From Chloroflexota bacterium (GTDB lineage Bacteria > Chloroflexota > Dehalococcoidia > JABGRK01): 64,000 nt of DNA. A model generated the notes under the pieces. It had not been told where the DNA came from and ran no database searches. It worked only from the letters and a program-made list of their open reading frames with translations. Positions 2,184 to 19,192 of this stretch are shown piece after piece. The DNA lies in NCBI GenBank assembly GCA_018648325.1, contig JABGRK010000017.1:186001-250000 (forward strand). The letters are read 5' to 3'. Every line of letters starts with the position of its first letter. Position 1 is the stretch's first letter. Position numbers and translations under genes: made by a program.

Positions 2184-4187
2184 CTATTGATTAGTTGATT
2201 CGGCGACTACTTCGGCAATATCCATGACTTTGAGCGTTCCTTCGACACCTTTGGCCTTGGCAGCGTCCTCAAACATAATCATGCATAGGGGGCAGGCGAC
2301 AGCAAGTATGTCTGCCCCCGATTTTATTGCGTCGTCGATGCGCAGATGAGAAATCTTGACCTCTTCTTCCATCCAGCAGCGTCCTCCACCGCCACCACAG
2401 CAGAAGCTACTGCGTTTCGTGCGATGTCGGTCTATTTCGGTATACTCATCGCTGGCAACGGATTTGAGTATCTGCCTGGGCTCTTCATAGATATCGCTGT
2501 AGCGTCCTAAATAGCAGGGATCATGGTAGGTGATCGATTTTCCTTTTGCTGTAGCTGATAGTTTGCCATCGGCAATAAGATCGGCAATAAGCTCGGTATG
2601 ATGAATTACCTCAAACTGGCCTTCAAACTGCGGATACTCATATTTGAGCGCATTAAGGCAGTGAGGGCAGGAGGTAACGATCTTTTTAACGTCGTATTTT
2701 TTGAGTGTTTCTATGTTGCGCATAGCCTGCATCTGGAAAAGGTATTCGTTGCCGGACCTGCGTGCCACATCGCCGCAGCAGCTTTCTTCTTCACCCAGAA
2801 TGGCGAAGTTCACACCGGCGTTTTTCATCAGGTTGGCTGTGTCAATGGCTATGTTTCGGCATCGGTCATCCAGTGCGTTGGTGCATCCCACCCAGAACAG
2901 TACGTCGAAGTCACCATCGGACGCCTGTTTGATGTCCAGACCTTCTGTCCAGTCGGTACGCGTGGCAAGTGTGCCCCGCCAGGGATGGCCTCTTTGCTCC
3001 ACGCTCCTCAGAGCGCCCATGATTGTTTCCGGCATCTGGCCCTGTTCCAGCACCAGGTTGCGTCTGAATTCCATTATCTTGGGCATGTGTTCATTGGCAA
3101 CGGGGCATACTTCCATGCACGAGCGGCAGGTGGTGCACGACCATATGGTTTCTTGCCTAATTACGTTATCGATAAGTTCTGCAGAGTCTTCTTCGCCTTT
3201 AATGATTCCCGGCGCTACTTTCCTTAAGTGTTTGTTTAAATCCTGTATAAGCTCTTTAGGATTGAGCGGTTTTTCGCTGGCAAACGCCGGACAGGCATCC
3301 TGACAGCGTCCGCATGAGATACAGGCGAAGCCATCAATCAATTGCTTCATGGTAAAATCAGTGATTTTATTAACGCCGAAGGTTTCTGTGTTTTCTATGT
3401 CGATCGGTTTCAGTGCGCCTTTTGGTTCCCGCGATCGCAATAGCAGGTTTATTGGAGCCATTAACATATGCAGGTGGCTGGACCAGCCGAACTGTACGAC
3501 GATAAAGAGCACAATAAGCCAGTGTGCCCAGAAGAAATAAGGATAAGCTGCATCGGCTGCAGCCGGGTTGTTAAAGATGTTGCTTAGCAGCTGTGCTACG
3601 GGCGGTGTTGCTCCTCCAAGCCCTGCAGGTGCATGTGATGCGGCAATGGCGGCAGCCTCTTTAAACAGGTGAATAAGTGGTATTGTGCCGATTAGTACCA
3701 GAGCTATGAGCGGGTCCAATATTGGCTCGCCTTTAAGCCTTGCTGGTTTGATAACAAATCTGCGGATAATTCCCCAGATAATTCCGGTAATGATCAGAAC
3801 GGCAAAGATGTTCATGAACCAGGAGTAGACCAGGAAAAACGTGTTATTCTGCATTGCATTGTAAATACCGAAACCGGCGCCGATGACAATAAACAGAAAA
3901 TAGTAAAGGACGAACAAAAAGAAGCCCCAGACAATAAGCACATGTCCTATTGCTGCCCTGTCTTTGCGGGATACGTTTTTAAATCCGCACCACTGTCCGA
4001 CAACATGGAAGAGCGCAGAGGCTATTCTTTTTACGATGTCAGTTAGTTTTGCATCTCTTTTGCCGACTGACAGATATTGTATGAGCTGTCGCAGCCTATA
4101 GGAAGCAACCGCAACTGCTACTGCAAAAAGCCCCCAAAAAAGGATATACCCTATTGCACTTAGTCCGCCTGCGTCTATCGGATTCAT
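2184..4187 (-). CDS. membrane-bound Fe-S oxidoreductase, NarI-like membrane domain fused to HdrD-like CCG domains (EtfD/ETF:menaquinone oxidoreductase-like)
   Basis: Multiple N-terminal TM helices, 4Fe-4S motifs CISCGRCQDACP and CTTCRSCMEVCP, CCG-type motifs SCCGD/CCGGGGGRCW. Confidence 0.8.
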   Translation of the reverse strand: MNPIDAGGLSAIGYILFWGLFAVAVAVASYRLRQLIQYLSVGKRDAKLTDIVKRIASALFHVVGQWCGFKNVSRKDRAAIGHVLIVWGFFLFVLYYFLFIVIGAGFGIYNAMQNNTFFLVYSWFMNIFAVLIITGIIWGIIRRFVIKPARLKGEPILDPLIALVLIGTIPLIHLFKEAAAIAASHAPAGLGGATPPVAQLLSNIFNNPAAADAAYPYFFWAHWLIVLFIVVQFGWSSHLHMLMAPINLLLRSREPKGALKPIDIENTETFGVNKITDFTMKQLIDGFACISCGRCQDACPAFASEKPLNPKELIQDLNKHLRKVAPGIIKGEEDSAELIDNVIRQETIWSCTTCRSCMEVCPVANEHMPKIMEFRRNLVLEQGQMPETIMGALRSVEQRGHPWRGTLATRTDWTEGLDIKQASDGDFDVLFWVGCTNALDDRCRNIAIDTANLMKNAGVNFAILGEEESCCGDVARRSGNEYLFQMQAMRNIETLKKYDVKKIVTSCPHCLNALKYEYPQFEGQFEVIHHTELIADLIADGKLSATAKGKSITYHDPCYLGRYSDIYEEPRQILKSVASDEYTEIDRHRTKRSSFCCGGGGGRCWMEEEVKISHLRIDDAIKSGADILAVACPLCMIMFEDAAKAKGVEGTLKVMDIAEVVAESTNQ

Positions 4188-10786: not shown

Positions 10787-11272
10787 TCAAGCTATATCAG
10801 TAGAATATGGAAATAGTGTTTTGTATACTGTCTGCCGTCGGCGAATTGCGATATTGAGTATTACACCACACAAACATGCTATACATGCGACAAAACCAAT
10901 TATCATTACCGAATCATTCAGGTAGTAGGTTCGGATATTATGGGACATTACGAAATTGGCAGAAAGTATAACTAGCCAGAATGCGCATATTATTAGTATC
11001 CCAATAGCACCACTATAGTGACCTTTCCAAGTGGCAATCACTATAAACGCTAATAATACTGCATATGCAAATATGAAAATAGGACCGACAAAAGGAATAG
11101 TGGCAAATATGGATAGTATCAAAATTCTGGCTACCATCTGCAGTATTTTCACGGTTTGTTTTGACCTCCATTGGTTAATTGGTTTTAACAACTGGGGCAG
11201 AATTAGTAAATAATAAAGTACCACCATGTGGTATGTCAAGGTGGTGAGAGTGTAAACTGCATCATAAATCAC
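10787..11272 (-). CDS. hypothetical multi-pass membrane protein
   Basis: 161 aa, several hydrophobic segments. Confidence 0.55.
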   Translation of the reverse strand: MIYDAVYTLTTLTYHMVVLYYLLILPQLLKPINQWRSKQTVKILQMVARILILSIFATIPFVGPIFIFAYAVLLAFIVIATWKGHYSGAIGILIICAFWLVILSANFVMSHNIRTYYLNDSVMIIGFVACIACLCGVILNIAIRRRQTVYKTLFPYSTDIA

Positions 11273-11543: not shown

Positions 11544-11581
11544 AAAAAAAGAAGCCCAGAGCGTATAACCCCGGGCTTCTT
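11544..11581 (-). terminator. Rho-independent terminator of bamA-like gene
   Basis: AAGAAGCCC...GGGCTTCTT with a T-run on the minus strand. Confidence 0.8.
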
Positions 11582-11607: not shown

Positions 11608-12741
11608 CTACTTCTGCTGTGGCGTTCCCAGAACGGCCTCAAACAGGTCGTCATTGACTGCATGACCGTCGCCTATCATTTTACGATATTTGATAAAGTC
11701 GATAGTATCCTGACCGGTAATCTTCTTGGTATTGAAAGCGGTAAAGCCAAGGAAGGCTTCACTGTTCATATTGGTACCCAGCCAGAAAATATGATCGCTC
11801 TTGTTCATATCCCAGAAGTATTTCTTTTTCTGCCTGATACCGATAATGGATTTTGTCAGGCAATGCGGGAACAGGTTGGTAAATGTCCACATCATTTTGT
11901 TGATCTCGGCATCAAGCAGTGAGAAGTCAACGGTGCACTCTTTTGCAAGTGCCTTGGCTGCTTTAGCCTCATCACCGGACGCCATTTCCCCGTATACCAT
12001 TTCGCCGTCATCAAGCCATTTGTCGGTGATAACTCTTGGGTTCCTGATAAATTTGCCATCGTGTTTAAGAACCTTGACTACCTTGCTGATGTAGTTCTTC
12101 CTGAGCATCTTGTAGGAGCTCCACATCTCGCAGGAGATACAGTTCCACATGGCGTCCTCAATGGATAGGGCCCATGGCAGGAAATCCGAAGAACCACCGA
12201 CCGGTGCTGAACCATGGCGCGGGCCTGCCTGTCCGAATATTGCGGTATCTGCGGAAATGGACAGATCGCATGCACCGCCGATTTCCTGTCCGCCGGCAAC
12301 GCTCATACCATTTACACGGCGGATAACGGGTTTCTGGCACAAAAGAATTGCATCAACCATAGCGTTGAACAGGGTCATATACTCTTGGTACTCGGTTGGT
12401 TTCTGTGCATAATATTCTGAGTATTCCTTGGTGTTACCACCTGTGCAGAAAGCATCAGAACCGGCACCGGTCAGGACAACGGCAACTACGTTGCGCTGTT
12501 CCTGAGCACGATGAAAACCGGCGATAACGCCTTTTACCATCTCGGTTGTGTAGGAATTGTACTGCGCTGGATTGTTCAGGGTAATCCATGCAGAGTAAAG
12601 ACCGTCAACCGGATTGCCCGCCGGATCAAGAATTGGTTTTTCTTCATACATTGTGCATGGGGCTTCTGTACCAAAATGTTCCATTCCCCATAGATTATGA
12701 TCTTTTACTCCACCTTCCCTTGGTAGCCAATCTAAAGACAT
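11608..12741 (-). CDS. bamA: 6-oxocyclohex-1-ene-1-carbonyl-CoA hydrolase (ring-opening hydrolase)
   Basis: MSLDWLPREGGVKDHNLWGMEHFGTEAPCTMYEEKP...NNPAQYNSYTTEMVKGVIAGF...FCTGGNTKEYSEYYAQKPTEYQEYM...GQAGPRHGSAPVGGSSDFLPWALSIEDAMWNCISCEMWS: very close to known BamA/Oah sequences as I recall them. Confidence 0.92.
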   Translation of the reverse strand: MSLDWLPREGGVKDHNLWGMEHFGTEAPCTMYEEKPILDPAGNPVDGLYSAWITLNNPAQYNSYTTEMVKGVIAGFHRAQEQRNVVAVVLTGAGSDAFCTGGNTKEYSEYYAQKPTEYQEYMTLFNAMVDAILLCQKPVIRRVNGMSVAGGQEIGGACDLSISADTAIFGQAGPRHGSAPVGGSSDFLPWALSIEDAMWNCISCEMWSSYKMLRKNYISKVVKVLKHDGKFIRNPRVITDKWLDDGEMVYGEMASGDEAKAAKALAKECTVDFSLLDAEINKMMWTFTNLFPHCLTKSIIGIRQKKKYFWDMNKSDHIFWLGTNMNSEAFLGFTAFNTKKITGQDTIDFIKYRKMIGDGHAVNDDLFEAVLGTPQQK

Positions 12742-13289: not shown

Positions 13290-13754
13290 TTATATTGATT
13301 TGAGTAAATTTGCAGTTTCAATAGCGCTAAGTGCGGCGTTATATCCGGCGTTGCCCATTTTGGTGCCAGCGCGCTCTATAGCCTGCTCCAGACTCTCTGC
13401 GGTTATTACCCCGTAAATCACCGGAACTCCTGTGTCCAGTCCTACGGCAGCAATCCCCTTTGAAACCTCTGATGCAACGTACTCAAAATGAGGCGTTCCA
13501 CCCTTGATTACCGCTCCCAGACAGATGACGGCGTCGTATTTACCCGATGTGGCCATTTTTTTTGCCACCAGCGGTATCTCAAATGCTCCCGGTGTTCTGG
13601 CGACCTCGATGTCCGTGTCTTTTACGCCATGCCTGATCAGCCCGTCTTTGGCGCCGTCTAAAAGACGTGTGGTTATAAACTCGTTAAAGCGGGAGGTAAC
13701 CAGTCCCAGTTTCAGTCCTTCACCTATAAGGTTGCCCTCGTATTCCTTGGTCAT
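13290..13754 (-). CDS. ribH: 6,7-dimethyl-8-ribityllumazine synthase
   Basis: [27 protein letters not shown]...[14 protein letters not shown]...[16 protein letters not shown]. Confidence 0.95.
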
Positions 13755-17389: not shown

Positions 17390-19192
17390 ATGTACAAAGG
17401 CGTAATGGGTAAAATACTATTTGTTAATTTAACTACGGGCGAGATAAATGTTGAGGAGCCCGATGAGCGGACATACCGCGATTACCTGGGCGGATATGGC
17501 TTGGGTGCAAGGGTACTTTTTTCCAAGCAAAAAAGCGGAGTTGATCCGCTGGGGCCGGATAATACCTTGGGATTTGTTACCGGCGTTCTTACCGGAACAC
17601 CTGCTTTGCTGGGTAACAGGTATATCGTGGTGGCCAAGTCGCCTCTTACCGGTGGATGGGGAGATGCCAACTCCGGTGGTGATTTCGGGCCATACCTCAA
17701 GTTTGCCGGATACGATGCGGTCTTTTTTACCGGCACGTCGGCAAAACCTGTATATCTGCATATAAACGAGGGCGAGGCCCTTCTCAAAGATGCCTCAGCT
17801 TTATGGGGCAAGGACGCTGAGCAGACCGATGACATACTAAAAGACGAGCTTGGCAAGGATGTAAGGATTGCCTGCATCGGGCCGTCGGGAGAAAAACTGG
17901 CTCGCCTTGCATGCATTATGAACGATAAAGGTCGTGCTGCCGGACGCTGTGGCCTTGGTGCGGTGATGGGATCGAAAAACCTGAAGGCTATAGCCGTATA
18001 CGGCACAAAAGCAGTGCCACTGGCAGACGACGTAAAGGTCAAAGCGGTGAAAAAAGAACAGCAGACCACTCTTCTGGAGAGCAGGTTTGTGGGAATGCTG
18101 CAAAAGGGCGGCGGAACATCCGGGTTTACCGCCGGTATGACAGGTCAGGGTGAGGCACCGATTAAGAACTGGGGCGGTAATCCGACTGATATGCCCGATG
18201 TAAGTACATTTGCCGCTGATAAGATACTTGAGCTTCGTGAGAAGAAATACTCCTGCTGGCGCTGCCCCATAGGTTGCGGCGGTATTATGAAGGCGGGGAC
18301 TGAGTATAGCTACCCGGCCGGAGCACATAAACCTGAATATGAGACTGAGGCTGCCTTCGGTGGTTTGTGTCTGAACAATAACCTTGAGTCTGTAATTATG
18401 GCCGGGCATATCTGCAATGTTTACGGACTGGACACGATATCGGCAGGAGGAACCATTGCCTTTGCCATCGAGTGCTACGAGAACGGCATTATTACTAAAA
18501 AAGACACCGGTGGTATCGAGCTGACATGGGGTAACCATAAAGCGATTGTCGAAATGACCGAAAAGATGGCCAAACGCGAGGGATTTGGGGACATTCTGGC
18601 TGACGGAGTCAAGGCAGCAGCCGAAAAGATTGGCAAGGGTTCCGAGAAGTATGCAATGCATGTTGGTGGCGAGGAACCGGCCATGCATGATCCCAAAAAC
18701 TCACCACGGTTTGCTTCCGGGTATGCCATTGATGCTGCTCCGGGTCGTCATACTCAGGGCGGTGCTAATGAGATCGAGGGAGATATGCAGAAGGCCAAGA
18801 ATACTTATTGTCAGGCCTACAACGCGACGGGCGTGTGCATGTGGGCGGCAGGTATGATGGGTGAGAATACGGTTGCCGAGATGCTTAGCGCGGTTACCGG
18901 TGTGGAATACAGTGTAGAGAAATTGCTTGAGGCTGGAGAGCGCATATCCAACATACGTCAGGCCTTTAATGTCCGCGAGGGCATCAATCCCATGGAGCGC
19001 AACTTCCCGGGCAGGATATTTGGGCAGCCACCGCTTTCCGAGGGGCCGACGGCGGGCAAGAGCGTTGATGTTAAACCGCGTGCCGTAGAGTATTTTAAAG
19101 CGATGGACTGGGACGAAAATACTGGCAAACCAAGTAAAGCAAAACTGATTGAGATGGGCATGGAAGACGTAGCATCTGAACTCTGGGGATAG
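17390..19192 (+). CDS. aor: aldehyde:ferredoxin oxidoreductase (tungsten)
   Basis: YKGVMGKILFVNLTTGEINVEEPDERTYRDYLGGYGLGARVLF...GGDFGPYLKFAGYDAV...CWRCPIGCGG. Confidence 0.92.
   Translation: MYKGVMGKILFVNLTTGEINVEEPDERTYRDYLGGYGLGARVLFSKQKSGVDPLGPDNTLGFVTGVLTGTPALLGNRYIVVAKSPLTGGWGDANSGGDFGPYLKFAGYDAVFFTGTSAKPVYLHINEGEALLKDASALWGKDAEQTDDILKDELGKDVRIACIGPSGEKLARLACIMNDKGRAAGRCGLGAVMGSKNLKAIAVYGTKAVPLADDVKVKAVKKEQQTTLLESRFVGMLQKGGGTSGFTAGMTGQGEAPIKNWGGNPTDMPDVSTFAADKILELREKKYSCWRCPIGCGGIMKAGTEYSYPAGAHKPEYETEAAFGGLCLNNNLESVIMAGHICNVYGLDTISAGGTIAFAIECYENGIITKKDTGGIELTWGNHKAIVEMTEKMAKREGFGDILADGVKAAAEKIGKGSEKYAMHVGGEEPAMHDPKNSPRFASGYAIDAAPGRHTQGGANEIEGDMQKAKNTYCQAYNATGVCMWAAGMMGENTVAEMLSAVTGVEYSVEKLLEAGERISNIRQAFNVREGINPMERNFPGRIFGQPPLSEGPTAGKSVDVKPRAVEYFKAMDWDENTGKPSKAKLIEMGMEDVASELWG

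Follow-up and report, generated by a model that had tools for sequence, protein, structure and literature searches.

An apparently solitary bamA gene in the draft genome of a Dehalococcoidia-type Chloroflexota bacterium (2.0 Mb in 19 contigs, 93% complete, 1.2% contamination) raises the question of which pathway its product serves. The gene lies in a stretch of 64,000 nucleotides (C7:186001-250000, hereafter the window), and the sequence-only reading of this stretch had regarded it as an orphan, with either the rest of the benzoyl-CoA pathway encoded elsewhere in the genome or the enzyme recruited for another cyclic 1-oxo-enoyl-CoA substrate.

The product of the gene matches the NCBIfam equivalog profile TIGR03200 (6-oxocyclohex-1-ene-1-carbonyl-CoA hydratase) along the entire model (1-360 of 360), scoring 528.7 bits where the cut-off is 464.45, and the second-best family reaches only 96 bits. 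All five diagnostic BamA/Oah blocks, including LPREGGVKDH, are found, at residues 6, 57, 99, 170 and 193, and most of them have core positions that hardly vary across 83 BamA sequences (NsYTt.M, afCtGGNtkEY, GQaGP.HGSap.GG and Amwnc.SCe.Ws). The full-length equivalog match and the five blocks are shared with the G. metallireducens BamA and the Thauera aromatica Oah. A phylogeny, as had been called for earlier, was computed by maximum likelihood for 58 rows with midpoint rooting and a long outgroup branch; it places the protein inside a BamA clade of 52 rows that is split from its own and related crotonases at 100/99, with Dehalococcoidales and Dehalococcoidia sequences as the closest rows (support 100/97). 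When 85,462 species were scanned, the nearest genomes, at 76-81% identity, were Dehalococcoidales, Dehalococcoidia and Chloroflexi MAGs, which points to a Dehalococcoidia-type Chloroflexota as the host; the matches in the PDB are distant crotonases only, with no BamA structure among them. Judged by its sequence, the gene encodes an authentic BamA/Oah of the benzoyl-CoA pathway, and the identity proposed in the sequence-only reading stands on the blocks, the profile score and the position in the tree alike.

The gene is monocistronic and is located between a small membrane-protein gene and ribH, all on the minus strand, with 548 bp separating it from the latter (Table 1). The earlier description of a gene standing alone with its own promoter and terminator is borne out for the solitary unit and for the terminator, which is represented by a hairpin followed by a T-run, but not for the promoter, as the five promoter-like hexamers near bamA are no excess over the 4.4 ± 1.9 in shuffled sequence. 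The length of the gap to ribH makes a promoter of its own plausible. The order bamA-dinB-apgM is retained in a same-genus genome (L162), which argues that the position of bamA is stable and not an assembly accident, and the product is 88% identical to a same-genus copy over the available fragment. In G. metallireducens, in contrast, bamA adjoins bamB, the two being the consecutive loci Gmet_2088 and Gmet_2087 (PMC1924859).

Table 1 Features of the window and of the host genome discussed in the text. Plain numbers are window positions; C7 and C12 precede contig positions, with L116 or L115 positions in brackets.
Feature	Position	Strand	Basis or remark
BamB copy 3, N-terminal 156 aa	1-468, extends past window to C7:184513	minus	open ORF and BamB match
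PaaX-family regulator	486-1313	minus	directly upstream of bamB; PF07848, PF20803, PF08223 over cut-off
HdrD/membrane Fe-S oxidoreductase-like	2184-4187	minus	CCG and 4Fe-4S domains
Small membrane-protein gene	10787-11272	minus	
Intrinsic-terminator-like hairpin 3′ of bamA	11549-11581	minus	14-pair stem, 7 G-C pairs, loop of 5, T-run
bamA (BamA/Oah)	11608-12741	minus	ORF, 377 aa from ATG; TIGR03200 match
ribH	13290-13754	minus	
AFOR-family gene of the window	17390-19192		Pfam, NCBIfam
AFOR-SDR-SDR-BamR block	C7:166210-170764 (L116:210-4764)		two SDRs and AFOR precede BamR candidate
SDR next to BamR candidate	C7:169194-169970		
BamR candidate	C7:169994-170764		
MvhD-like gene	L116:8403 to about 9230		in-frame TGA at FVCHW[U]AYGAAD
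HdrA-like gene	C7:175276-178383 (L116:9276-12383)		in-frame TGA at DCSM[U]ILSPKLVE
BamB copies 1 and 2 (divergent paralogs)	C7:179843-183752 (L116:13843-17752)		818 and 831 bits
Two HGD-D proteins and two acyl-CoA dehydratase activases (BcrAD/BadFG-type)	C12:36721-40725 (L115:6721-10725)		in a row
tRNA-Sec	C12:79476-79569		71 bits, anticodon tca (ARAGORN)

The statement that no bamB-I genes are visible does not hold, since the ORF that starts MRYAETGYNLEIDL and crosses the left edge of the window encodes within it the first 156 residues of a BamB, and the remaining cluster lies directly beyond the edge. Read across the edge into the contig, this BamB copy 3 is a protein of 651 aa that matches the crystallised G. 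metallireducens BamB (4z3w) without gaps at 1186 bits, compared with 222 bits for the aldehyde oxidoreductase 1aor. The tungsten ligand Cys322 as well as Glu251, His255, Glu257 and His260, which distinguish BamB from aldehyde oxidoreductases (PMC12096430), are all retained in the alignment to 4z3w. Downstream on the same strand, bamC adjoins the gene outside the window (245 bits to 4z3w_E), and two BamB-like genes, a second bamC-like gene, fdhD and HdrA-, MvhD-, HdrC- and HdrB-like genes are also present; by domains and homology only, the HdrA-like subunit would be of the BamE type, the MvhD-like subunit of the BamF type and the HdrC- and HdrB-like subunits of the BamD type. BamB and BamC orthologs with the active-site residues, together with HdrA-, MvhD- and HdrB/C-type subunits, are thus shared with the class II BamB-I system of G. 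metallireducens (PDB 4z3w), whereas the three BamB copies, the TGA-bearing HdrA and MvhD genes and the distance of 11 kb from bamA set the present cluster apart. The two divergent copies keep Cys322, Glu257 and His260 and are altered in the Glu251/His255 region, and may act on other arenecarboxyl-CoA esters. The HdrD-like protein is a possible electron-transfer partner; a 40% identical gene in a close relative (L079) sits between bamE/F-like genes and bamQ-bamA.

AFOR-family (tungsten oxidoreductase) genes number thirteen in the 2.0-Mb host genome. The AFOR at 17390-19192 of the window is not supported as a BamB; its matches to BamB proteins mostly show about 25-35% identity (42% over one short stretch), and Pfam and NCBIfam class it as a generic aldehyde oxidoreductase.

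The HdrA- and MvhD-like genes each contain an in-frame TGA, and both positions are matched in three related loci (L009, L159 and L079), that of HdrA also in L163. A tRNA-Sec is encoded in the host genome (Table 1), and both subunits are likely selenoproteins. The selenocysteine reading reinforces the assignment and is not new in kind.

Linkage of bamA with the reductase genes is conserved in relatives. In the locus L009, the BamA of which is 79% identical, the order mvhD-hdrA-fdhD-hdrB-bamC-bamB-PaaX-bamA (corresponding to bamF-E-fdhD-D-C-B-PaaX-bamA) occupies about 11 kb, and in G005, from another family of the same class, the order is bamR-bamA-PaaX-mvhD-hdrA-hdrB-bamC-bamB (L159/L160). The locus L079 holds hdrA, mvhD, the HdrD-like membrane protein, two ORFs named by eye as EtfB- and EtfA-looking, bamQ and bamA, the last of these (L079:10001-11102) with a frame break at about 10880 that is either an assembly error or the mark of a pseudogene. 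PaaX is found beside bamB or bamA in L009, L159, L045 and L161. Among 148 sampled genomes of the class, BamA exceeds the cut-off in three (G000, G005 and G076), with a fragment in the same-genus G034, and close BamB homologs occur in five (G000, G034, G005, G020 and G105); the two proteins are found together in G000, G034 and G005. The orphan appearance of bamA arises for the most part because the edge of the window cuts through the reductase cluster and because a rearrangement at the level of the genus has separated bamA from the bam cluster. With a class II benzoyl-CoA reductase cluster beginning about 11 kb from bamA at the left edge of the window, the label of an orphan falls, and of the two explanations offered with it, the first, by which the other pathway genes are encoded at another place in the genome, is supported.

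The genome-wide search for pathway genes that had been suggested gave bamB-F-type genes, a BamR candidate under the cut-off, and neither BamQ nor bcr or bzd equivalogs. The BamR candidate, about 28 kb from bamA, scores 182 bits on TIGR03189 (cut-off 292.5) and its next own paralog 95; the bamA-adjacent BamR of G005, with 199 bits, is likewise under this cut-off. The candidate is 50-56% identical to bamA-linked hydratases in the NaphS2- and Syntrophus-labelled loci and in G005, compared with 35-39% for the next own paralog. The bamQ gene immediately precedes bamA in L008, L010, L011 and L079, which are four of the five loci closest in BamA, and the BamQ of L008 scores 463 bits on TIGR03201. The best MDR match of the host genome to this profile reaches 118 bits where 338.65 is the cut-off, and a relative's BamQ used as query gave no match at E<=1e-20 in the host or the same-genus G034 genome, both of which are drafts. 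The MDR proteins were rejected as BamQ at this score, the best in the regions searched being 27% identical. Six candidates for a benzoate-CoA ligase are present in the host genome, none over the TIGR02262 cut-off.

The BamR candidate is part of a block conserved in G034, which also lacks BamQ, with identities of 95% for SDR2, 91% for SDR1 and 87% for BamR; among the BamQ-bearing genomes tested the best match to SDR2 is 42%. One of the SDR genes lies 24 bp upstream of the BamR candidate, and it is conceivable, though rather less likely than not, that the genus has lost the zinc-type BamQ and that this SDR replaces it non-orthologously, with a possible tie to the Sec-containing HdrA/MvhD reductase. 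The SDRs could instead act on 3-hydroxypimeloyl-CoA.

The adjacent bam cluster, the BamR candidate and the linkage of bamA with bam genes in relatives make it very probable that bamA serves an ordinary benzoyl-CoA pathway, in which the reductase is of the tungsten (class II) type, in a strictly anaerobic Dehalococcoidia-type bacterium. The sequences show that BamA and BamB belong to their families, that the active-site residues of BamB are kept and that the linkage is conserved in relatives; the anaerobic lifestyle, what the enzymes catalyse, the route of the electrons and the dehydrogenase are inferred. Dearomatisation of benzoyl-CoA would fall to an ATP-independent class II reductase with tungsten, composed of BamBC and electron-transfer subunits of the HdrA/MvhD/HdrBC type, and the dienoyl-CoA would be hydrated by the BamR-type hydratase. 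A dehydrogenase, for which the SDR beside BamR is a candidate, would then oxidise the alcohol to 6-oxocyclohex-1-ene-1-carbonyl-CoA, to which BamA would add water, opening the ring hydrolytically to 3-hydroxypimeloyl-CoA, which would enter beta-oxidation.

The second explanation of the sequence-only reading, recruitment of BamA to a different cyclic substrate, has found no positive evidence. Such a 1-oxo-enoyl-CoA could be, for instance, substituted, alicyclic or polycyclic, and the reductase would then serve a different arenecarboxyl-CoA. Recruitment would account for BamQ and a curated benzoate-CoA ligase not being found in the host genome, for the divergence of BamB copies 1 and 2 around the Glu251/His255 site and for bamA and bamB not forming one operon, yet with the full benzoyl-CoA active site in BamB copy 3, the BamA score well over the equivalog cut-off and bamA adjoining canonical bamQ or bamB-F in close relatives, it appears unlikely. 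Still smaller is the chance that bamA is a relic, unused since the loss of bamQ: the gene is indeed solitary and bamQ missing, but its ORF is intact with all five conserved blocks, the same-genus fragment is 88% identical with gene order unchanged, and the genes for BamB copy 3 and BamC are intact, so that disuse is hardly credible.

It is also conceivable that an ATP-dependent class I reductase encoded on C12 is used and that the class II genes have a different role. The layout of the two HGD-D and two BcrAD/BadFG-type ORFs resembles bzdNOPQ, class I genes are found near bamA in other phyla, and a class I reductase has been reported for marine Chloroflexi (PMC5736913). All four C12 proteins, however, are far under the bcr and bzd equivalog cut-offs; the first HGD-D scores 167 bits against BzdN and much the same, 164 bits, against 2-hydroxyisocaproyl-CoA dehydratase, and the second has no match above 60 bits. 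The C12 enzyme was accordingly rejected as the main dearomatising reductase, and its use in place of the class II system is very improbable.

The presence of bamA and bamB in Dehalococcoidia is already published, both having been noted in MAGs of the order SZUA-161 (PMC10570749), with which the present genome has the BamA and BamB genes in common. Marine Chloroflexi single cells, in contrast, carry a class I reductase (bzdNOPQ) along with dch-had-oah (PMC5736913), whereas here a class II block with a canonical BamB is found near bamA, and bamQ is not found. The case also shows that a pathway gene can appear orphaned through the placement of a window boundary. Among the details, the absence of BamQ with a conserved SDR-SDR-BamR block and the likely selenoprotein nature of HdrA and MvhD are the more interesting. 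The ATP-independent tungsten route of benzoyl-CoA reduction is extended in Dehalococcoidia-type Chloroflexota, in which the ATP-costly class I enzyme is the one known from detailed single-cell reports. This is relevant to the question of how these anaerobes could subsist on aromatics at low energy yield.
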